Below, piece after piece: positions 392 through 11,587 of a stretch of 11,587 bases of DNA (its first letter is position 1; each line of letters starts with the position of its first letter). The stretch is from NCBI GenBank assembly GCA_003140915.1, contig PLLI01000097.1:546-12132 (forward strand), read 5' to 3'. Under the pieces are notes generated by a model. The model made no database searches. It had not been told where the DNA came from and worked only from the letters and a program-made list of their open reading frames with translations. A program made the translations under genes and the position numbers. This DNA is from Candidatus Omnitrophota bacterium. GTDB taxonomy: Bacteria > Omnitrophota > Gorgyraeia > 2-01-FULL-45-10.

Positions 392-1393
392 ATGAAAAGA
401 AAAAGTAAATATAATGTAGTCGTTGTCGGAGTTGGAGTTGTCGGGATAGAGATGCTGCGCGTGTTGCGCCAGCGGAATTTTCCGGTAGGAGACCTGCGGG
501 TTTTAGCACGCAGCACAAGGGAGATAACTGTCGACGGCGAAAAATATTCCGTCAAGGCGATCTCGCCAGAGGCGTTTGACGGGATGGATATAGCGCTATT
601 CGCGGGGACCGAAGGCGAAAAAGGCGCGGCAGTGATTTATGCTCCCGAGGCGGTAAAAAGGGGATGCGTTGTCATAGATAACGGCGCTGATTTTCGCATG
701 GACCCGAAAGTGCCGCTTGTCGTCCCGGAAGTGAACGCCGCCGACGTCAAAAAGCACAAGGGAATAATCGCGAACCCGAACTGCTCGACCATACAGATGG
801 TCGTGGCGCTCTACCCTATACACAGGCGTGCGCGGATAAAGAGGATAGTCGTTACGACCTTCCAGTCCGTTTCAGGCGCGGGGCAGAAGAAAGTAAACGA
901 ACTATGGGAACAGTCCGGGGCTTTCCTCGCGAAAAAACCGATCAAGCCGGTCGAATTCCCTTACCAGATAGCGTTTAACCTTATCCCGCAGATCGACGTC
1001 TTCATGGATAACGGTTATACCAAAGAAGAGATGAAGATGGTCAACGAAACCCGTAAGATAATGGGTGACGATTCGATAAAAGTGAACGCCACCTGCGTGA
1101 GAGTGCCCGTATTCTATGCCCATTCCGAAAGCGTCAACATCGAGACCGAAAAATATATCAGCGCCAATGAAGTGAGGGAACTTCTATTGAAAGCGCCGGG
1201 CGTCCGGCTCGTCGACGATCCGATGAATAGATCCTACCCAATGCCCATAAACGCCGAAGGTAAAGACGACACTTTCGTCGGTAGGATCAGGCGGGACGAC
1301 TCTGTAAAGAACGGCATCTCGATGTGGGTTGTCGCCGATAACATCCGTAAGGGTGCCGCATTGAACGCGATCCAGATCGCGGAATTACTCTGA
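392..1393 (+). CDS. asd: Aspartate-semialdehyde dehydrogenase
   Basis: This 333-residue enzyme reduces L-aspartyl-4-phosphate to aspartate-4-semialdehyde with NADPH. It is the branch point to lysine/diaminopimelate, threonine and methionine. The ATG at 392 is chosen because AAGG lies 7 nt upstream and the Rossmann strand with GVGVVG begins right after it. An upstream in-frame TTG at 365 would overlap the previous gene and has no support. The catalytic Cys is C131 in ANPNCST. SVSGAG follows, the catalytic His is H244 in YAHSES, and the C terminus has RKGAALNAIQIAELL. Length is normal for the family. It starts 10 nt after the leuB-like gene and is probably co-transcribed. Its stop codon overlaps the first base of a large inverted repeat. 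Confidence 0.95.
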   Translation: MKRKSKYNVVVVGVGVVGIEMLRVLRQRNFPVGDLRVLARSTREITVDGEKYSVKAISPEAFDGMDIALFAGTEGEKGAAVIYAPEAVKRGCVVIDNGADFRMDPKVPLVVPEVNAADVKKHKGIIANPNCSTIQMVVALYPIHRRARIKRIVVTTFQSVSGAGQKKVNELWEQSGAFLAKKPIKPVEFPYQIAFNLIPQIDVFMDNGYTKEEMKMVNETRKIMGDDSIKVNATCVRVPVFYAHSESVNIETEKYISANEVRELLLKAPGVRLVDDPMNRSYPMPINAEGKDDTFVGRIRRDDSVKNGISMWVVADNIRKGAALNAIQIAELL

Positions 1394-1447
1394 TTCCGTG
1401 ACCCGGACAGAGCAAGTAAACTACACGCACTGTCCGGGTCACGGAAT
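1393..1447. repeat. Perfect 18-bp inverted repeat (hairpin) between asd and truA
   Basis: The left arm ATTCCGTGACCCGGACAG (1393-1410) is the exact reverse complement of 1430-1447, with a 19-nt loop at 1411-1429. The left arm begins on the last base of the asd stop, and the right arm ends 8 nt before the truA ATG. No T run follows the right arm, so it is not a standard intrinsic terminator. In RNA it would form a very stable stem occupying the region where a truA ribosome binding site should be. It could be an mRNA processing or stability element, a translational brake on truA, or a genome-wide palindromic repeat (REP/MITE-like). Confidence 0.93.
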
Positions 1448-3191: not shown

Positions 3192-3197
3192 AAGGAG
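3192..3197 (+). promoter_or_regulatory. Ribosome binding site of the giant ORF
   Basis: A strong Shine-Dalgarno, AAGGAG, lies 6 nt before the ATG at 3204. It fixes the start of the giant ORF and of its hydrophobic leader. Confidence 0.85.
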
Positions 3198-3203
3198 AAA
3201 AAA

Positions 3204-3296
3204 ATGATAAAGAATACCATAGCGCGAAAGATAATATGTCTCGTTGTTGCCAGCGCCTTTATGTTCAACGAAATTTCCTACGGGTTAGGCACCGCG
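3204..3296 (+). other. Signal-peptide-like / N-terminal membrane segment of the giant protein
   Basis: Residues 1-9 carry K3, R8 and K9. A hydrophobic core follows (residues 10-21, IICLVVASAFMF), then the polar stretch NEISYGLGTAPGT. The basic-hydrophobic-polar layout fits a Sec signal or an N-in membrane anchor. A weak A-S-A site lies at 16-18, and cleavage nearer G27-A31 is also possible. No lipobox is convincing around C12. By the positive-inside rule the remaining protein would face outward. Confidence 0.65.
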
Positions 3297-6200
3297 CCCG
3301 GCACCATAACTATGCCGACTCAGGGTAATATACTTCACATGCTGAGCCAGGTATTTTCCACAGAGATCCCGACCTCTCCGGAAATGAAATATTATGGGTT
3401 ACCGGATTTAAACAACTTGACGGATCTTGTCGGCTATGGCGTAACATTCCCGGAAAAGATAAACGCTGCAAACCTCCCTCCCGAGTTGGCCGAAAGCCCG
3501 ATTTACAAGACGCATAAACTGATAGACGCCATACGGCTTTCCGCTCAATCGAAAGGAAGCAAGCTCGCGGCCTTTGACAATATAGAGGAAGGCTACTTCG
3601 AATCGGCTAAGGGCTATTTGCCTAAATTCGAGATAGAGACTACCAAGGATAATAAGCACATCCTGGTCCTCCATACCGAGTTTGCGCAGCTGCTGGAATA
3701 TATAAAAGAGCACGACGTCTACTTCACCTATAACGGGGAGACAAAGAGCCTCGCAGAATGTATATATGAGAAACTTGTAGAAGGGGCGAACGATGTCGCT
3801 CACAAGGCGGCGTGGATGTGCCTCGTATGTTCATTTTACAAATGGAACGCCAGGAGCTATAACGGCGCAAAATACGAAAAACTGCTAAGGCAGATTTCCG
3901 ACATCAATAATAAAGAATTCAAAAATCTTGAATTTTGGCAAGAATTCCCGGATTTACTCGAAAACCCCGCGGAGAGAGAAGCGGCCATTAGCCTTGCCTT
4001 CTCGCTAAATTCACGGTTCTTTTCGAGGCGCGGTATAGGGATCCCCGAATTTAAGGTGGACCCGAGCCTTCTGACAGCGGCGATGGACCGCGAGACCAGG
4101 CAAGCGGGTACTTCTAAGACAACGGTTCTCCACGGCACCCTCGCTGATCTGAGAAAAGAGAGCGACCGGGACGAAAGCGGAAGGTTTGAAGAACACCTGG
4201 GGAAGAGTATGCATGCAGCGGCAGTAGTCCTCGCTTTTACTCCTTCCTTATGGGGAAAACCCTTTAGCGTGGCTGATTATCTGGATAAAGCATACATACC
4301 TTTTCTGAAGGCGCATCCGGAATACGGTTATCAAGTGCCCGCAAAAAATAGAAAATCCGCTCTTGCAACGGCACGAAATGACCTGTGGAAACTGGCCTTT
4401 AATCTGGAAAGCCCCATACCCCTGCGATGGCTCGGAGTGGACAAGAATAGTTCCTCCGGCCGTTTTCTATTTAAGATAAACGATAGTGCTCAACGCCATT
4501 TAGAAGTATTGAAAATTGAATCTGAAAAAGAAATGGGGGGAAAACAGGTTGCCGGCGCATCTCAACAGCCGCCGGTCCCTGCAAAAGCAGAGGAGAAGAC
4601 CGTCCTGATCGTTGGCGGGGCCGGATATATAGGAAGCACGGTTGTAAATGACTTTAACCCGCTGGTTAAAAAATATCTTGATGATGGCTGTAAAGTAGTG
4701 GTTTATGATAATCTTAGCTCCGGCCATATAGCGGCTTTGCCTGATGGCGTAAAATTAATAGAGGGCAAACTTTCCGACAAAGCGGCACTCGTAAAAGCTT
4801 TTAGAGACTCAAAGGCCGCTGAAGCGGCCATTCACTTCGCCGCATATATAGAGGTAGGCGAGTCCAATGAGAAGCCGGAGAAATATTATGAGAATAATAT
4901 TATAAATACGCACATCCTTCTCGAGGCGATGCGCGAGGCCGGGATCAAGAAGATAGTATTCTCTTCATCGGCTGCCACTTACGGGACCCCGAAGACGGTT
5001 CCGATCGATGAGAATGCCGAACTCAATCCGATAAATCCGTATGGCGTGACGAAATATATGATGGAGATGCTCCTGAGAGAATACGCCAGAAAGTACGGTT
5101 TCAGGGCGGTTGCATTCAGGTATTTCAACGCAGCAGGCGCGTTCTCGGAAGATGTCGGCGAGGATCATGATCCGGAGACGCATATTATCCCGAATTTCGT
5201 TATGGCTGCGTTAAACAATGAAGATTTATGGATTAACGGAGACGGCAGTCACCAGCGCAGTTATATCAACGTAAAGGACCTTGCGGTTGCCCATATTCTT
5301 GCGGTTGACTGGTTAAATAAGCAGGAAGAAGCGAAGCCGGACGAAGGTGTTTTTGAGGCGTTCAATCTCGGCGCCCTCAGGACGTATTCGAACCTCGAAA
5401 TCGCTGAGCGCATAATAGCGAAAGTATCGGAAATAACAGGGAAACCCTGTACAAGCAGTATCCGGTATAGACCAGCGAGGCCCGGTGATCCCGATAAACT
5501 GGATGCCAGGATCAATAAAGCTCGAGAAGTGTTAGGGTGGGAGCCGCAGTATAGCGATATTGATACGATCATCGAAGGCGCTGTTAAGTGGCGCATGGCG
5601 CACCCGAAAGGGTTTGAGGAGAAGACGAAGAAAGTTCCGGATAGAGCGCCGCTCGCCATCATACAGGATATGAGGGAATATCTTCTGCAGGATATGACCT
5701 TGAGCTGGCAGTTCAAAATGGAATTTTTCGAGAGACTCTTTAAGGATGAGATCAATAAGTTCAGGGTGCTGGATCAAGCGAAGAAGGAATGGACAGACGA
5801 CCAGATCCTAAAATGGGCGAAGGATAGCGACCCGGATCAGAATAAGATATTCGAGCTGATCACCGGCGCGATAAAGAAGATCAATATTCCTGTTACGAAA
5901 AAGGATGTGACGGTTTCGGAGAGCGAGGCGGCAGCGCTGCAGTCAACGGCAGATGATTCGAAGAGGGCAGCTATAGTCAAAGATATCTTCAGTCGCGAGT
6001 TTAACAGCACATCGGACGTGACAACGAAAGCGCCCGGGAGGGACAACGTGCAAGGTGAGCACGTCGACTATAACGAAGCGCAGATCAAGACAGGTAAGGT
6101 CCACTTATATTCCATGGGAGGAGCCATACAGAACAATTTCCTTGCGGCCGCGGCTAAAAGAAACGACCGGGTAGTGCGCATGGTGCATGCCGATACTCAG

Positions 6201-9200
6201 GAATATTTTGCATTCAATCTGGATGACCTTGAAGCGTTACAAAAGTTAATAGCGATATACGAGAGAGAAAACGGGATACCCGCCGCGGAAAGAAAGATAC
6301 CCGTGTGGGCAAACCACACTATGGGCGTATTGATGCAGGCGGTACAGCAAAAGGATCTCAAAACAGGCTTGGATATAGTGATAGCCAGTAACGTTCCTTA
6401 CGGCGTGGGGCTGTCGAATTCCGCGTCGAACGACGTTGCTGTTACTATGGCGCTCGACGAACTCTTCGGGTGGAAACTAACGCCGGTCGAGATCGTTACC
6501 TTTGCGCGGGACGGGGAATGGGACAAATTCGTCGGCTCCACGTGCGGCTGGTTAGACCAGCTCCTCATCGTCTTTTCCAAAAAAGGTTTCTTCGCGATGA
6601 TAGACTATGCAACGAAAAAGATAACATACTTCAAGTCGCTTTTGCCCGAGACCCTGCAGAGGGTACTCGTCAATACCAACATACCGCATGACCTCGCACA
6701 GACGGAATATAACGACCGCAACCTTGGCGAACTTCCTAAAGCCCACGATACTTTGAAGGCGCTTTTCCCGGAACGGGATATCTATGGGAGCACATCTCTT
6801 ACGCTCGCCGAGATCAACCGGCTCATAAACTTTTTTGATCCTAAGGCGCCTAAGGTGGATTTTGTGCGTGAAGGATTCAGAGAAACACTCCTGGATAGCG
6901 GGCTCATAACACCGGAGGAATTAAAGGCTCATGATGCCGATAACCTGCCTTCAAATTCCGAAATATTCGATAGATTCCATAAACTTGAGGGAGGGTATAA
7001 AAAGCCTGTCGTAATTAAAAAAGGTAAAGAAGAGGTCGTTTTCAGGCATGCTAACTTAAGTGATCCGGAGAGCTTTGCTCTGTGTCTGCGCAGGATGAGG
7101 CACCAGCTCACCTCAGCCATAAGAACTCCCCTGACAGGAAAAGCGGCAGAAAAGGGTGATGTGGTCTCGTTCGGAGAACTGATCGACGCCGAAGGAAGAA
7201 GCCTGCGCATGAGCGGCGATTTCCAGATTACCGGAGAGAACGGCGCCCAGGACGCCCTGCTTGATATCGGTTATGCGGTTGGCAAGGAATTAAATATCAG
7301 AGTACATGTGGACATAGAAGTATTAGGAGTATATGGCCGCATGGAAGGTGGCGGTGGCGGCGGTAACGTCGGATTTTATGTAGACAGGTCTAGCGGCAGG
7401 CTTTATAGGGAATGGCGTCAGCGCGTAGAGATGAGGTATAAGGAATGGCTCGACGCAAGCCAGGTCGTAAAAGATTGGTTAAGCAAAAACCCTGATAAAA
7501 CCGTCAAGGCCACATTCATCGAACCGGTGCTCTCGGACGGCGCCGAAGTTATCGAAACAAAATACAAAAAAGTTACTACCGAGCAGGGGCATAAGATCGT
7601 TACGATCACGAACAAAGCCGGTAATTCGCTACAAGCTATAGATGGTATCGGGGTGCTAAGGTCGTGGAAGGTTGCGGGCAAAGAGATACTGCAGTATCCC
7701 GAAGGCCAGTATACCGTTGTCGGAGGATTCCCGCCCCCGTTCTTTGTATTTAGTGGCAGGGTAAAAGACGGCGTATTTCAATTGGAAGGGGAGAATGTAG
7801 AGAATAATAAGAAGGATCTTAACGAATTCCGCAATAAAGAAGTAAGGTTCGACCAGGACGAAGGCGGCAACGCTCTTCACGGGATCCAGATGGAGTGGGA
7901 GACAGAGTCGGCCGGAGTGGTTAAAGATGAGGCTGGCCAGGAGGAGGGCGTATACATTACGCTTGTCTCCGGCGCGAGCAAGAACAAAGCATTCAGGAAA
8001 CTTTTCGACAAAGGCGATAAAAAGGCCTCTGCTAAGCTAAGGCTTACCTATACATTGATAGGAAATACCCTCAAAGTAAATTATTCTATTCTCAATGACG
8101 GCGAAGTGCCATTCCCCAATTATACAAATCTTCACATCTGGCTTAACTCGGGCGGTGAGCCGGTCAGTTTCAGCAGCACAGACACAGAGCGCGTTGTCTA
8201 CGACGGCCTTTTTCCGGCGACTCCACGCAGGACAGAGCCGGTTAACTTAACCGCTCCGCAAAAGATATATAATATGGTTTATGAGCAAGTTTTCGAGAGC
8301 CACGAAGGCGCAGCTATTTCCGACGTTACTTTATCGGATGGAACGGTTATAAGACTTAAGCATGGCCTTGCGCAGACCAAAGTGTGGATAAACAGGCAGA
8401 GGCGTACTGTCAGCCCCCAGCCGCTGGAAGAAGATATCGGCTCGCTCAGTCCAGACCACAAACCAACGTGTAAGATTATCAAACCCGGAGAACCTTTGCG
8501 GGAATATACCGCAGAATATGAAGTCATCCCTACCGATCCGGATAACGCACGCAGGGTAGGGCTTGTGTCCGAGCTTGCGCAATTATTAGCCACTATCGAA
8601 GATAGCTCACCCTTATTTAACAAAGATGCTGTTTGGGACCGGGCGGAAGAGGATGGGTTGACACTTCAGCTGTTTTTAGAGACCCTTCATAAATTGCTTG
8701 ATAACCCGGTTCTGCAGGAAAGGATATTCAGGGTCTTTGCTCAATATTATGACAGGACCTCGCCCGATTTTTTGGAAAACGTAGCTCTGCTCTTGGATGC
8801 CGCTTGCTACTGCCCGAACGAAATTGTGGACAATTACAGAGAATATCGGCCCATTCTTCATGATCTTATTGCAGAGTTTGCCAGGCCGGCGTCGTCCCTC
8901 CTTACATATAAAGAGGTAGGCCAGCAGATATGGTTAGACGGCCTTACGTGGGAGATGATCCAGTCCGGCGAATTCAAGGACTTCGTGGATCCCGATATCC
9001 ACGGCATAACAGGCGTTACCACAAACCCCAATCTCATAAAGGCGTATCTGGAAGACAAGAACGTGAAGGCCGAGATGGCGAAATTAGCCGCCAAGGGCCT
9101 TTCTAAAGATGAAGTCTATTTCGAGATCATAAGGCAGCTCGCGGTCTCCGTCATCAAGATCTTCAAGGATCGCAAGGTTGTAGGCAAATTCAGTATCGAG

Positions 9201-11587
9201 CTAAATCCCCTCGATGCCGATAACGTCGAGGTTTCGCTAAAAGAGGCCGATAAGTGGCTTAAGCTTAAAGGCATGGATCCTGACTACATCATGTTTAAGG
9301 TAGCGGCGACAGATGCCGGCTATCAGATAATAGAGGATTTGATCGCAAAAGGCATAAACGTCAACGCTACACTCATCTTTACGCCCGAACAATATATAAA
9401 GGTAGCGGAGGCATACATCAAAGGCTTGGAACGTGCGGTAGCGGCAGGTGTTGACATATCGACACTATACTCTGTGGCGAGCTTCTTTTTAAGCCGCTGG
9501 GACGTCGCTTACGCAAAGGCGATAACCGAGAAGCAGGATATAAGACACTTGCAGTCCAAGATAGCAAATGCGGTAGCTCAATTCTCATATAACGAGATCT
9601 TCAGCGCGATATTCTTAGGGACCGAACCGACCCAGGAAATGACGGAAGCTATGCACTTTAAAGTCCTGGACCTGCAGGCCCGTTACAATACATTAAAAGA
9701 AAAGGGCGCCAGGCCGCAGGATTTCCTTTTAGCCTCAACAGGCTCGAAGGTAGGCGACATGGTGAAGAAAGGCCTTCTTAACAAAGAAGACGCTGGATTG
9801 TATCCTGACGACATATATGTTACGCCCGTACTAGGCGATCATGTCGTTAATACATTGCCATACACGACCATTAAATACATGATGGCGAATAATCTACCCG
9901 TTTCTGCGACGATAGTGGAAAATCGCCGGGCAGCGCTACGTGTATTAAGAGAACTTGATATACTCGCCATCCAGGGAATTTTACCCGGCAGGGACAAGGT
10001 CGGCGCCGAACTCTTCGAAGGCGGAAAGAAGGACTTCGAAGGATCGACAAAAAAGATCATGGGGATGATAGACGACGCATTTAAGCAGGCGCGCGCCTCG
10101 TCTCTCTCGGATGTCTCAGTGACTGGCCTTAAAATTATTACAAGGATCCTTGAAAAAGACGTTGTGGATATGATCTATAAGGCCGGTTCAGGACACCCGG
10201 GCGGATCGCTTTCGATGCTCAATATGGTTGCCGCATGCTATTTTGGCAAGACGTCCGACGGCAAAAGGATAATGAACTACGATCCAAGTGACACAGTAGA
10301 CAGCAAATGGATTAACAGGGACAGGTTCGTCCTTTCAAAAGGACATGCATGCCCAGGGTTATATGCAGCGTTAGGCAGAGCAGGGTTCTTTTCAACAGAC
10401 GAATTTGATAATTTAAGAGTACTTGACTCAATATTGCAGGGCCATCCTGACATGAATAAAACTCCGGGTATTGATATGTCGGCAGGTTCCCTCGGCGTTG
10501 CCGTTTCTGGGGCAATGGGCATGGCTATTGCCGCAAAGATGGACAACAGGGATTATACAACTTTTGTTATGTTAGGTGACGGTGAGGTACAGGAAGGCCA
10601 GGTCGACGAGGCCGCAAGGCATGCGGCTGCTATGGGGCTTGATAACGTAATAGCATTCCTCGATTGGAACGGTATTCAAATAGATGGCAAAGTGACGGAT
10701 GTTGATATAGGTTTTGAAGGCCAGGTTAAAATGTGGGACGCTTGGGGATGGAATGTCATAACGGCCGATGGAGAAGACGTAGAAGATGTAGTCAGGGCGA
10801 TCGAAAAGGCCAAGAAGACCAAAAACGGCAAGCCCACCATTATCATATCGAAGACGACAAAAGGGGCAAACCTGCCGGGCCTTGATAAGCACGGGTCTGC
10901 GCCGAAAAAGGAAAATGTGGAGGCCGCGACAAAGATCATCGAAGACGACCTGATAAAACTTGGCGGCCAGGATTTTAATAAAGATACGTTTATGAGCAGT
11001 CTCTTACCGAAGACTGCTCTGAATCAAACTGAGAAAGAAGAAATAGATAAAAGAAACGAGGCGGCAGTTAAGGATAGAGAAGAAGAGCTGCTCAATATCG
11101 TCCAAAGCGATAAAGCCCAAAAGATCATTAATGAAGTCAAAAAGGCCTATCCTGCAGATAAGAAAGTCTCTACGCGAACAGCTGAGGGAGATGAGCTTGT
11201 GTTGGAGGGCGCGGAAAATCCTAAAGTTGTCGTTATGTCGGCCGATCTTATGGGTTCGGTGATGTTCGATAAGTTTGCGGCCGCATACGGGATATTTTCT
11301 AAGGAGAATCCCACCGGCAGATGTATTAAGATGGGTATTCGTGAAGCACATATGGTGTCTTGCGAGGTAGGGCTTGCGACGTGCGGCAAAATACCCGTCA
11401 GCGGGACATTCGCCGTATTCGTGACCAGGATGGTAGACCAGCTAAACGCGGTTCTAAATACTAAGCTTCCTATAATGATCGTCGGAACCCACGGCGGCCT
11501 GGCGACAGGCCCGGATGCACGCACGCATCAGGATCCTCATTCTCAAAAAGTGCTTGGCGCGCTTCCCGGTGTTCATATACTCGAAGC
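3204..11587 (+). CDS. Giant multienzyme polyprotein (leader - unknown - GalE - GalK - GalM - transaldolase - transketolase), 3' end outside window
   Basis: A single frame stays open from the ATG at 3204 to the window edge: 2,794 complete codons and no stop, checked codon by codon. Each domain is described separately below. Order with approximate residues: leader 1-31; unrecognised region 32-464; UDP-glucose 4-epimerase 465-803; linker 804-918; galactokinase 919-1415; aldose 1-epimerase 1433-1778; linker 1779-1906; transaldolase 1907-2300; transketolase 2301-2794+. Each of these is normally a separate 330-660-residue cytoplasmic protein. Catalytic motifs are present in all five, so this looks like a working multienzyme rather than a decayed fusion. 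Together they would convert galactose via galactose-1-phosphate and UDP-hexose, and shuttle pentose-phosphate-pathway sugars. The hydrophobic, basic N terminus predicts membrane insertion or export, which conflicts with the cofactors needed. A strong ribosome site and its own promoter suggest real expression. Confidence 0.95.
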   Translation, partial: MIKNTIARKIICLVVASAFMFNEISYGLGTAPGTITMPTQGNILHMLSQVFSTEIPTSPEMKYYGLPDLNNLTDLVGYGVTFPEKINAANLPPELAESPIYKTHKLIDAIRLSAQSKGSKLAAFDNIEEGYFESAKGYLPKFEIETTKDNKHILVLHTEFAQLLEYIKEHDVYFTYNGETKSLAECIYEKLVEGANDVAHKAAWMCLVCSFYKWNARSYNGAKYEKLLRQISDINNKEFKNLEFWQEFPDLLENPAEREAAISLAFSLNSRFFSRRGIGIPEFKVDPSLLTAAMDRETRQAGTSKTTVLHGTLADLRKESDRDESGRFEEHLGKSMHAAAVVLAFTPSLWGKPFSVADYLDKAYIPFLKAHPEYGYQVPAKNRKSALATARNDLWKLAFNLESPIPLRWLGVDKNSSSGRFLFKINDSAQRHLEVLKIESEKEMGGKQVAGASQQPPVPAKAEEKTVLIVGGAGYIGSTVVNDFNPLVKKYLDDGCKVVVYDNLSSGHIAALPDGVKLIEGKLSDKAALVKAFRDSKAAEAAIHFAAYIEVGESNEKPEKYYENNIINTHILLEAMREAGIKKIVFSSSAATYGTPKTVPIDENAELNPINPYGVTKYMMEMLLREYARKYGFRAVAFRYFNAAGAFSEDVGEDHDPETHIIPNFVMAALNNEDLWINGDGSHQRSYINVKDLAVAHILAVDWLNKQEEAKPDEGVFEAFNLGALRTYSNLEIAERIIAKVSEITGKPCTSSIRYRPARPGDPDKLDARINKAREVLGWEPQYSDIDTIIEGAVKWRMAHPKGFEEKTKKVPDRAPLAIIQDMREYLLQDMTLSWQFKMEFFERLFKDEINKFRVLDQAKKEWTDDQILKWAKDSDPDQNKIFELITGAIKKINIPVTKKDVTVSESEAAALQSTADDSKRAAIVKDIFSREFNSTSDVTTKAPGRDNVQGEHVDYNEAQIKTGKVHLYSMGGAIQNNFLAAAAKRNDRVVRMVHADTQEYFAFNLDDLEALQKLIAIYERENGIPAAERKIPVWANHTMGVLMQAVQQKDLKTGLDIVIASNVPYGVGLSNSASNDVAVTMALDELFGWKLTPVEIVTFARDGEWDKFVGSTCGWLDQLLIVFSKKGFFAMIDYATKKITYFKSLLPETLQRVLVNTNIPHDLAQTEYNDRNLGELPKAHDTLKALFPERDIYGSTSLTLAEINRLINFFDPKAPKVDFVREGFRETLLDSGLITPEELKAHDADNLPSNSEIFDRFHKLEGGYKKPVVIKKGKEEVVFRHANLSDPESFALCLRRMRHQLTSAIRTPLTGKAAEKGDVVSFGELIDAEGRSLRMSGDFQITGENGAQDALLDIGYAVGKELNIRVHVDIEVLGVYGRMEGGGGGGNVGFYVDRSSGRLYREWRQRVEMRYKEWLDASQVVKDWLSKNPDKTVKATFIEPVLSDGAEVIETKYKKVTTEQGHKIVTITNKAGNSLQAIDGIGVLRSWKVAGKEILQYPEGQYTVVGGFPPPFFVFSGRVKDGVFQLEGENVENNKKDLNEFRNKEVRFDQDEGGNALHGIQMEWETESAGVVKDEAGQEEGVYITLVSGASKNKAFRKLFDKGDKKASAKLRLTYTLIGNTLKVNYSILNDGEVPFPNYTNLHIWLNSGGEPVSFSSTDTERVVYDGLFPATPRRTEPVNLTAPQKIYNMVYEQVFESHEGAAISDVTLSDGTVIRLKHGLAQTKVWINRQRRTVSPQPLEEDIGSLSPDHKPTCKIIKPGEPLREYTAEYEVIPTDPDNARRVGLVSELAQLLATIEDSSPLFNKDAVWDRAEEDGLTLQLFLETLHKLLDNPVLQERIFRVFAQYYDRTSPDFLENVALLLDAACYCPNEIVDNYREYRPILHDLIAEFARPASSLLTYKEVGQQIWLDGLTWEMIQSGEFKDFVDPDIHGITGVTTNPNLIKAYLEDKNVKAEMAKLAAKGLSKDEVYFEIIRQLAVSVIKIFKDRKVVGKFSIELNPLDADNVEVSLKEADKWLKLKGMDPDYIMFKVAATDAGYQIIEDLIAKGINVNATLIFTPEQYIKVAEAYIKGLERAVAAGVDISTLYSVASFFLSRWDVAYAKAITEKQDIRHLQSKIANAVAQFSYNEIFSAIFLGTEPTQEMTEAMHFKVLDLQARYNTLKEKGARPQDFLLASTGSKVGDMVKKGLLNKEDAGLYPDDIYVTPVLGDHVVNTLPYTTIKYMMANNLPVSATIVENRRAALRVLRELDILAIQGILPGRDKVGAELFEGGKKDFEGSTKKIMGMIDDAFKQARASSLSDVSVTGLKIITRILEKDVVDMIYKAGSGHPGGSLSMLNMVAACYFGKTSDGKRIMNYDPSDTVDSKWINRDRFVLSKGHACPGLYAALGRAGFFSTDEFDNLRVLDSILQGHPDMNKTPGIDMSAGSLGVAVSGAMGMAIAAKMDNRDYTTFVMLGDGEVQEGQVDEAARHAAAMGLDNVIAFLDWNGIQIDGKVTDVDIGFEGQVKMWDAWGWNVITADGEDVEDVVRAIEKAKKTKNGKPTIIISKTTKGANLPGLDKHGSAPKKENVEAATKIIEDDLIKLGGQDFNKDTFMSSLLPKTALNQTEKEEIDKRNEAAVKDREEELLNIVQSDKAQKIINEVKKAYPADKKVSTRTAEGDELVLEGAENPKVVVMSADLMGSVMFDKFAAAYGIFSKENPTGRCIKMGIREAHMVSCEVGLATCGKIPVSGTFAVFVTRMVDQLNAVLNTKLPIMIVGTHGGLATGPDARTHQDPHSQKVLGALPGVHILE
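3297..4595 (+). other. Unrecognised N-terminal region of the giant protein (about 430 residues)
   Basis: I recognise no family here. Residues 32-464 look folded and mainly helical, with many charged residues mixed with Trp, Tyr and Phe (for example EFWQEFPDLL and LVCSFYKWNARSY). Residues about 354-425 have a helix-helix-hairpin look (SVADYL, TARNDLWKLAF, SGRFLFKI) that faintly suggests a winged helix, but I give that low weight. Residues about 443-464 are a Gly/Ala/Pro/Gln-rich flexible linker (GASQQPPVPAKAEEK) leading straight into the GalE domain. It could be a targeting, scaffolding or host-contact module. Confidence 0.6.
4596..5612 (+). other. UDP-glucose 4-epimerase (GalE) domain
   Basis: This extended-SDR enzyme interconverts UDP-galactose and UDP-glucose with bound NAD+. 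About 339 residues, the normal GalE length. Visible: the NAD-binding GGAGYIGS (471-478), YDNLSSGH, FAAYIEVGES, SSSAATYG with catalytic-type S589, YGVTK with Y613 and K617, FRYFNAAGA, GDGSHQRSYINVKDLA and, near the end, RPARPGDPDKLDARINKAREVLGWEP. All catalytic positions of the family are intact. The substrate could be another UDP-hexose or UDP-N-acetylhexosamine, but the neighbouring galactokinase and mutarotase domains favour galactose. An in-frame ATG at 4533 precedes it but lacks a ribosome site. Confidence 0.95.
5613..5957 (+). other. Helical linker between GalE and GalK domains
   Basis: Residues 804-918 match no family I know. The stretch is strongly charged and looks helical (MREYLLQDM, FFERLFKDEINKF, ILKWAKDSD, IFELITGAIKKI), ending in an Ala/Ser/Glu-rich part. 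It may be a small helical docking or spacer module rather than a floppy linker. Confidence 0.6.
5958..7448 (+). other. Galactokinase (GalK, GHMP kinase) domain
   Basis: Galactokinase phosphorylates alpha-D-galactose at C1 using ATP-Mg. The galactokinase signature PGRDNVQGEHVDYN (from about residue 944) keeps R946, E952, H953 and D955. The GHMP phosphate loop is NVPYGVGLSNSAS (G1067, G1069, S1071), with Asn where Ser is usual at 1072. The catalytic base is D1118 in CGWLDQL, followed by FFAMIDY. NIPHDLAQTEYNDR matches the family motif after the base. The C-terminal loop GRMEGGGGGG (R1379 on) is a Gly-heavy version of the usual RMTGxGFGG. The domain, near 495 residues, is about 100 longer than typical; an insertion lies at about 1210-1295. 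GHMP relatives such as mevalonate kinase lack the GEHxDYN signature. Confidence 0.92.
7500..8537 (+). other. Aldose 1-epimerase / galactose mutarotase (GalM-like) domain
   Basis: GalM interconverts beta- and alpha-D-galactose, supplying the alpha anomer that galactokinase uses. About 346 residues of mainly beta pattern fit the family length. Visible are GGNALHGIQMEW (N1556, H1559), LRLTYTLIGNTLKVNYSI, and NYTNLHIWLN with H1644 at the catalytic-acid His position. SPQPLEED follows, where E1742 is a plausible catalytic base, then KPGEPLREYTAEYEV at the end. The spacing from E1742 to PGE (21 residues) is within one residue of the human enzyme as I recall it. Divergence is greater than in the other domains, so a related carbohydrate epimerase activity (for example hexose-6-phosphate mutarotase) is possible. 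Confidence 0.85.
8538..8921 (+). other. Helical linker between GalM and transaldolase domains
   Basis: Residues 1779-1906 are not recognised. They look alpha-helical and leucine-rich (VSELAQLLATIED, LQLFLETLHKLLDN, ERIFRVFAQYYD, ENVALLLDAACYC), resembling a HEAT- or TPR-like helical spacer without a clear repeat. The size is similar to the GalE-GalK linker, though no obvious sequence similarity is visible. Confidence 0.55.
8922..10103 (+). other. Transaldolase domain
   Basis: Transaldolase moves a dihydroxyacetone unit from sedoheptulose-7-phosphate to glyceraldehyde-3-phosphate in the non-oxidative pentose phosphate pathway, through a Schiff base. Length is about 390 residues, close to the Tal type found in actinobacteria and in Tal-phosphoglucose isomerase fusions. 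Visible: IWLDGLTWEMIQSG with D1912, ITGVTTNPNLI (T1939, N1941, P1942), FSIELNP with E1999, MFKVAATDAG with the Schiff-base lysine K2032, VNATLIFTPEQY, SVASFFLSRWDV (S2097, R2098), LLASTGSK, and NTLPYTTI. All catalytic residues are in place. No phosphoglucose isomerase follows; transketolase does. Confidence 0.95.
10104..11587 (+). other. Transketolase domain (C-terminal part outside window)
   Basis: Transketolase transfers two-carbon ketol units between pentose phosphate sugars using thiamine diphosphate. The diphosphate-binding half has AGSGHPGGSLS (H2331), NRDRFVLSKGHA (H2381), LQGHPD (H2414), and the cofactor motif GDGEVQEGQ (G2458, D2459, E2464) ending at N2489 in DWNGIQIDG. KHGSAP carries H2563. 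The pyrimidine-binding half starts near residue 2660 and has VVVMSADL, MGIREAHM with the cofactor-activating E2714, and ARTHQDP with H2775. These match the active-site histidines and Glu of characterised transketolases. The remaining pyrimidine domain and the C-terminal domain should follow beyond the window. The sequence does not fit DXP synthase or phosphoketolase. Confidence 0.96.

Follow-up and report, generated by a model that had tools for sequence, protein, structure and literature searches.

A probable modular class of Omnitrophota giant proteins carrying interchangeable metabolic enzymes behind an export-type leader

Enzymes of central metabolism are, in textbook terms, cytosolic, separate and conserved proteins. 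What kind of protein, then, is encoded by a single frame in which five of them follow one another? The question is raised by a stretch of 11,587 nucleotides, here called the window, from the genome of an Omnitrophota bacterium (G000:C9:546-12132; a MAG of 1.16 Mb in 128 contigs, 79% complete). A sequence-only reading had recognised GalE, galactokinase (GalK), aldose-1-epimerase (GalM), transaldolase and transketolase on one chain and had taken them for a metabolic megaenzyme. The phylum Omnitrophota has host-dependent and predatory members. Giant ORFs of >20 kb, mostly with few annotated domains, have been described in it, and adhesion or predation has been suggested as their task (Seymour et al. 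2023, PMC10066038). In the parts of that paper available to us, giants of the class Omnitrophia carry transmembrane helices and adhesion domains (PMC10066038).

The reported length of the frame holds: 2794 codons follow the ATG at 3204 without a stop, while the other two forward frames contain 175 and 186 stops over 3204-11587. A chance ORF was rejected, as the probability of such a stop-free run at the given base composition is about 2e-67. Third-position GC, taken per 100 codons, ranges from 0.44 to 0.67. The ORF measures 8.5 kb to the first gap; counted to the end of the contig, across frame-breaking gaps, the distance from its start codon is ~14.8 kb. It is a single coding frame with five recognisable enzyme modules, laid out as follows.

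3192..3197, forward strand: Shine-Dalgarno site AAGGAG, 6 nt upstream of ATG 3204 (sequence)
3204..11587, forward strand: open frame, 2794 codons in the window, very likely the 5' part of a larger gene (ATG start with Shine-Dalgarno site, no stop)
3204..3290, forward strand: export-type leader with basic n-region, hydrophobic core and small c-region residues (crude hydropathy rule)
3291..4148, forward strand: orphan N-domain, common to giant proteins (alignments; phylum profile search)
4191..4499, forward strand: spacer domain, winged-helix-like (Pfam AF_0924 only, below cut-off, E 0.031)
4500..4601, forward strand: Ala/Gln/Pro-rich linker (sequence)
4602..5609, forward strand: GalE (UDP-glucose 4-epimerase) module (TIGR01179; PDB 8wxk, 1.2e-70)
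5610..5891, forward strand: spacer of ~94 residues without match (Pfam scan)
5892..7541, forward strand: galactokinase-type GHMP kinase module of the giant-protein clade (Pfam/NCBIfam and PDB search; catalytic motifs kept)
7596..8501, forward strand: aldose-1-epimerase-like module without the catalytic Glu (Aldose_epim, 31 bits, weak; alignment A5)
8502..8882, forward strand: spacer of ~127 residues without match (Pfam scan)
8916..10079, forward strand: transaldolase module, Schiff-base Lys K2032 kept (PF00923, 132 bits, above cut-off; PDB search)
10110..11003, forward strand: transketolase TPP-binding module (PF00456, 179 bits; PDB 6yak, 1.7e-65)
11160..11585, forward strand: transketolase pyrimidine-binding module, running past the window end across NN (Pfam)

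All five enzymes were recovered in the one frame with Pfam and NCBIfam profiles, GalM weakly and transketolase with its C-domain lying beyond the window, and the residues named as catalytic in the sequence-only reading stand at the numbers given (Y613, K617, E952, D1118, H1559, H1644, K2032, D2459 and E2714). The GalE module (residues 467-802) scored 287.6 bits with TIGR01179, above the equivalog cut-off of 262.3, and Y613 and K617 form its YxxxK motif. Galactokinase signatures were found at residues 929-958 and 1046-1125 (Pfam/NCBIfam). Here TIGR00131 gave 136.9 bits, below its equivalog cut-off of 226.65; the motifs are present in what is a divergent clade. All three GalK motifs are kept in 7/7 giants of this clade, and the third pattern is absent from L040, which is of another type. 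Aldose_epim was retrieved at residues 1465-1766 by Pfam alone (31 bits), and a PDB sequence search with the same part returned no GalM, its sole match being an adhesin with repeats. We take the catalytic triad of GalM to be His/His/Glu and the Glu column of our alignment to represent the catalytic glutamate. H1559 and H1644 are kept; the Glu column is not E in the window, though it is E in both aligned relatives. The statement that catalytic residues are intact in each enzyme is wrong for GalM on account of this column, and the module looks inactive, judging from the alignment. No GalT domain was found by Pfam among the ORFs scanned on the window contig. With GalM degenerate as well, the Leloir set on the chain is incomplete.

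Transaldolase occupies residues 1909-2288, and its Schiff-base Lys is kept in 6/6 aligned giants. The N and pyrimidine-binding domains of transketolase follow at residues 2320-2800 (Pfam), and the best PDB match of the TPP module (6yak) is a split-chain transketolase. Between the window transketolase and a module in L043, another leader-bearing frame, identity is 80% over 190 residues, versus 43% over 276 residues with the stand-alone copy of the window's genome. On these identities the module seems to have a history separate from that of the genome's stand-alone enzyme.

The first ~28 residues of the window protein look like an export leader. By one crude hydropathy rule, which is not SignalP and was fixed after the giants had been inspected, leader-like N-termini were called in 36/36 giants versus 9/99 control ORFs (150-700 aa, from the fetched loci, with the first ATG as start). 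The N-domain that follows has no Pfam match and no PDB match by sequence search. It shares 22-29% identity with its relatives, and the AKHEM stretch present in most of those aligned is absent from it. The window gene has both the leader and the N-domain by which the giant class is defined here, the window itself being one row of the A4 leader profile used for the phylum search. The spacer at 4191..4499 is 51% identical over 95 residues to a spacer of a genus-mate giant; nine seed sequences, including those of the window and L006, went into the profile for this spacer. Its winged-helix label, which may be correct, is our own reading of weak Pfam matches (EarA, AF_0924). No hydrophobic segment was called at KD 1.8 in the window protein (P0002). 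Such segments occur inside the chain in the giants P0006 and P0032.

The window spans the interval from one NN mark to the next on an 18,579-base contig (L006). The marks, at 544, 12133 (12133-12134), 17644 and 18311, all lie outside the window ORF. Extending the contig, as had been proposed, does meet a stop, at L006 12199, 67 bases beyond the window; this stop follows the NN at 12133-12134, and transketolase continues in another frame. The giant transketolase of G010 aligns with L006 10673-12139 and then, in the other frame, with 12136-12678, ~8 residues being missing at the NN. The transketolase C-domain opens the next ORF (1810 aa), past the gap and out of frame with the N and pyrimidine domains. 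At three of the contig's four NN sites the frame changes. The first lies inside leuB, where the Iso_dh profile matches at 8-189 before the mark and at 225-346 after it in another frame; the third is also at a frame change, without homology joining its two sides as one gene. Considering the frame shifts at 3/4 NN sites and the jump in the leuB profile, we read NN as marking a gap of undefined length and regard the stop as most likely an assembly effect; a true stop just after the window was set aside on the same grounds. The gene very likely continues past the window. Beyond transketolase there is matchless sequence with two CsrA-like copies (54.7 bits in all), the second of them partial, and two more spacer matches. 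Apart from the rest of transketolase, no further enzyme was recognised up to the contig end. L006 ends with a frame open, and as the contig breaks off there, the gene's own C-domain is not seen. Upstream of the gene, an intergenic element of ~55 bp at window 1393-1447 (asd/truA) matches itself in reverse and has copies of 80-82% similarity on C50 and C115.

Relatives were sought with the full protein, with the N-domain of a family member (L037) and with the leader of P0011. These searches return only proteins of 0.55-1.75x query length, so that the relatives are all long partly by design. The full-protein search retrieved eight, most with several metabolic domains (Pfam). GalK occurs with GalM in P0005, where the GalK-GalM adjacency recurs, with a class II aldolase in P0006, with GalM and a ROK kinase in P0007, with ROK in P0008, and with an FGGY kinase, KDPG aldolase and URO-D in P0010. 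Transaldolase is accompanied by hexokinase in P0009 and by phosphoglucomutase in P0011, and stands by itself in P0012. Transketolase and transaldolase also occur together in G010; enzyme sets otherwise differ between relatives. The match between P0005 and P0007 covers residues 1-812 and the last ~235, with GalK, ROK and other modules reordered in between. P0010, P0011 and P0012 share a second leader of ~357 aa and a different C-end of 111 aa, with middles that differ. The enzymes behave as cargo, in that they differ between proteins while the ends stay the same.

Three observations made by eye concern these relatives. A GAMSE(K/R)-like motif stands at several module borders of P0005 and P0007 and is a possible cut or recombination site. 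The linkers of P0011 and P0012 differ from this (SSSP). P0006 has an HExxH-like HETGH stretch, and its hydrolase-like C-end is preceded by a signal of Tat-lipoprotein type; it may represent two genes run together or a giant with its own protease.

With the N-domain of L037 (also P0013 and L048; JAFGRN010000001.1, Omnitrophota) as query, again among long proteins only, 27 proteins of 1466-4002 aa with differing cargo were found; for five, no Pfam domain had been precomputed. The C-terminal domain of one of these, P0032, was matched by 25/27 in BLASTP searches, P0032 itself counted, and a C-domain profile built from 24 of the N-domain proteins plus L036 matched 26/27. Proteins with this C-domain end in Ala (26/26 versus 12/99 control ORFs; P0031, partial in its source, is left out of the count), often in FWTAA. 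A PDB sequence search with the C-domain gave nothing significant, its two matches having E values of 0.41 and 0.74. A genus-mate giant (L035, G012:C58) has the leader, a hexokinase, the C-domain and the end REFWTAA. In L035:5961-6087 its frame changes within a ~126-base overlap without N, which is either a sequencing error or a real shift. At the other extreme, L061:3637-5649 (G009) encodes 671 codons with leader and C-domain, almost nothing between them and no Pfam match; it is perhaps a carrier without cargo.

A six-frame search with the leader profile of the window type, run without length limit, detected it in 12/270 sampled genomes of the phylum, in frames of 617-4442 aa, several of them cut by contig ends. 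This leader type is patchy on that count. The second leader family, searched with P0011 among long proteins only, comprises 740 proteins. The 120 listed include PGK, GAPDH, enolase, TPI, class II aldolase, PPDK, transketolase, PGM, GPI and many others, and ~50 of the 120 have no precomputed Pfam domain (eye count). Four of these 120, including P0043, lie on contigs of 647,104 bases, and P0032 of the N-domain family lies on a 710 kb contig.

Several enzymes were surveyed across sampled genomes of the phylum. With the GalK profile, 5/285 genomes gave a match at E 1e-20, and in one of these the match sits in a short, stop-containing frame. A contig scan with the GalK part as query confirmed no match. 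Transaldolase was found in 81/270 genomes, in frames of 2870 (window), 3221 (G010) and 11,858 codons (G071), the others being <=1018. The G010 frame (G010:C11) contains no Ns and encodes transketolase, transaldolase and phosphofructokinase. The G071 frame (G071:C42; L052:2126 to L053:17699) encodes roughly twelve domains of metabolic enzymes. They comprise transketolase, transaldolase, hexokinase, PGM and PGI, a PfkB kinase, an amino-acid dehydrogenase, a PLP enzyme, a CofD-like domain, UDP-glucose pyrophosphorylase and two KDPG aldolases. A separate transaldolase match lies in a 510-codon frame just downstream, so the giant copy is extra to a stand-alone one in G071, while in G000 and G010 the enzyme was seen only in the giant. 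As both GalK and transaldolase were found in G000 only there, the giant chain may be the sole source of the two. G000 also holds a split stand-alone transketolase; the reported range of the second of its matches contains two TAA.

Hexokinase (PF00349) gave 27 above-cut-off matches in 25/255 genomes, 11/27 in frames of 1423-27,888 aa and 16/27 in frames of <=690 aa; its NDT motif is kept in 7/7 aligned giants. Of the 11 genomes with a giant hexokinase, two (G012 and G016) have a copy on its own as well, and no other PF00349 match above cut-off was found in the remaining nine. PGK was detected in 239/255 genomes, and every match listed has the length expected of a separate enzyme (392-486 aa). 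The idea that glycolysis resides in giants alone in this phylum was rejected for PGK on these listed lengths, and giant copies may occur among the matches beyond them. Evidence that the cargo enzymes are extra to housekeeping ones is mixed. A housekeeping role fits as well, since an enzyme is often found only in a giant. One giant frame fills a whole contig, G239:C35:1-83666 (L065-L069), whose 83,666 bases form 27,888 codons without N or stop. The 5000-residue piece scanned includes PGI, hexokinase, a methyltransferase, an amidohydrolase and more; Pfam coverage was ~5000/27,888 residues here and 5000/9390 in G263:C27.

Normally, CsrA is a small RNA-binding regulator that forms a protein by itself. 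It was found above cut-off in frames of >1000 codons in 7/255 genomes, that of the window among them, and in as many as four copies. Two to four CsrA-like copies are clustered in L006:12259-17691, G246:C26, G056:C17, G053:C132, G028:C34 and G036:C39, in frames of 1057-4482 codons.

We consider it likely that these genes form a modular class of Omnitrophota proteins, in which interchangeable metabolic enzymes are mounted on an export-type carrier, and that the window is the 5' part of one member. The single frame, the order of its modules, the N- and C-domains common to the relatives, the exchange of modules and the retention of active-site motifs are features read from the sequences themselves. 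In the proposed arrangement, a conserved export-type leader and the orphan N-domain would come first. Interchangeable and mostly complete enzyme modules would follow, with linkers and spacer domains between them. The chain would be closed by the conserved orphan C-domain and an Ala-ended tail, often FWTAA, as in the complete relatives; for the window gene this C-end is inferred. The whole chain would be translated as one polypeptide, the leader would take it into or across the inner membrane, and the tail would serve in its sorting or trimming. It is reasonable to guess that a PDZ protease trims or sorts the chain, because FWTAA resembles the WVAAA tail of a Tsp substrate. Enzyme activity and its site of action are likewise predicted. 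Kinases and enzymes using TPP or NAD are hard to use outside a cytoplasm, which argues against exported action; the need for ATP, NAD or TPP makes a second cytoplasm one option. Chains with working enzymes and regulators (CsrA) might leave the cell, act in the cytoplasm of a prey or partner and redirect its sugar metabolism, an extension of the model that we regard as improbable. The modular reading as a whole also has to accommodate the NN gaps that break the frame and the genus-mate L035, which shifts frame without Ns.

Compatible with this arrangement, and tentatively entertained, is a polyprotein: one chain cut at its linkers, perhaps from the Ala tail by a Prc/CtpA-type protease. It would account for the GAMSEK/R motifs seen by eye at the P0005/P0007 module borders, for the HExxH-like stretch in P0006 and for the Ala C-terminus in 26/26 proteins, and E. 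coli Tsp acts on a protein given a WVAAA tail, as reported in the part of the source available (PMC5758756). Against it, no border motif was seen by eye in the window protein, the linkers vary between lineages, and separate genes would be a simpler solution.

The modules might alternatively no longer be working enzymes and serve as structural or decoy parts of a surface protein. The loss of the GalM catalytic residue and the partial second CsrA copy point this way, as do the published Omnitrophota giants, read as adhesins or coat in the parts of the paper available (PMC10066038). The kept motifs speak for function instead (GalK in 7/7, transaldolase Lys in 6/6 and hexokinase NDT in 7/7 aligned giants), and the Pfam search of the window protein found no adhesin domain, yielding enzymes, CsrA and a weak HEAT match. 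We judge this reading unlikely.

Quite unlikely too is a cytosolic megaenzyme that channels Leloir and pentose-phosphate intermediates, its leader being either a membrane anchor, the rest of the chain staying inside, or non-functional. Three Leloir-type and two pentose-phosphate modules do adjoin, most catalytic residues are kept, and ATP, NAD and TPP are cytosolic. Transketolase, transaldolase and phosphofructokinase come together again in G010, and GalK and transaldolase (G000) and hexokinase (9/11 giant-hexokinase genomes) were found only in giants. This has to be set against GalT, not found in the scanned contig ORFs, the missing GalM Glu, the widely differing enzyme sets of the relatives and the split stand-alone transketolase of the same genome. 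Pathway channelling as the main purpose was set aside, as GalT is missing from the ORFs scanned, the GalM Glu is lost and the sets change. Of the megaenzyme proposed from the sequence alone, the one coding frame with five modules stands, and the cytosolic union of galactose use with the pentose-phosphate pathway is not supported; a plain cytosolic enzyme also fits poorly with export-like leaders in 36/36 giants by the crude rule.

Separate proteins made from inner starts, the long frame being accidental, are highly improbable. Nine inner in-frame start codons do have a 5-base Shine-Dalgarno match, for example the GTG at residue 949. Counting the true start, this makes 10/126 in-frame starts, compared with 17/158 and 4/42 in the other frames, so there is no enrichment in the window gene, and inner start sites were rejected for that reason. 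None of them coincides with the beginning of a module. The closest, residue 1928, lies 23 residues into transaldolase, and the GTG at 949 falls within a GalK motif. Long frames also recur in other assemblies. An assembly or chimera artefact is scarcely credible, despite a gap-marked MAG (79% complete, 128 contigs) with NN at both window ends, given that all N marks of the contig lie outside the window ORF, that GalK-GalM adjacency is repeated in P0005 and transketolase/transaldolase in the gap-free G010 frame, and that the two leader families occur on contigs of 710 kb (P0032) and 647 kb (P0043).

If the modular reading is right, sugar enzymes are strung together in sets that change from protein to protein, on chains that bear export-type leaders and two orphan domains at their ends. 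Some giant genes called poorly annotated are thereby given content, and two domain families are left to solve. If exported and active, such chains would carry metabolism beyond the cell that makes them, a form of interaction that would be new. Giant Omnitrophota genes are already known. Among the matches listed in our literature search, whose range lay outside bioRxiv and most subscription papers, none describes giants with a common leader, exchangeable central-metabolism enzymes and a common C-domain.

Known fused enzymes, among them AROM, combine steps of one pathway, are cytosolic and have a constant make-up, and two-enzyme fusions are common knowledge. The window protein resembles the bifunctional Gal10 (PDB 1z45) and transaldolase/phosphoglucose isomerase (NF007080) in having several enzymes on one chain, and differs from such fusions in that the sets change and carry an export-type leader. 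Proteins of the T9SS and others with a C-terminal sorting domain, as far as the sources available describe them, likewise join an N-terminal signal and a conserved C-domain around a varying middle; here, in contrast, the C-domain has no significant PDB match, the end is of FWTAA type and the cargo is metabolic and of cytosolic type. With Prc/Tsp substrates the giants share a nonpolar, Ala-ended tail after an aromatic residue (WVAAA versus FWTAA), going by the part of the source available, in which E. coli Tsp processes a protein given the WVAAA tail (PMC5758756); they differ in not being linked here to any protease. The published Omnitrophota giants are the nearest in kind, coming from the same phylum with very long single frames, and the 27,888-codon frame is of their size class. 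The difference from what the available parts of that paper describe (PMC10066038) is that here enzyme modules stand between common N- and C-domains, in a window protein in which no hydrophobic segment was called.
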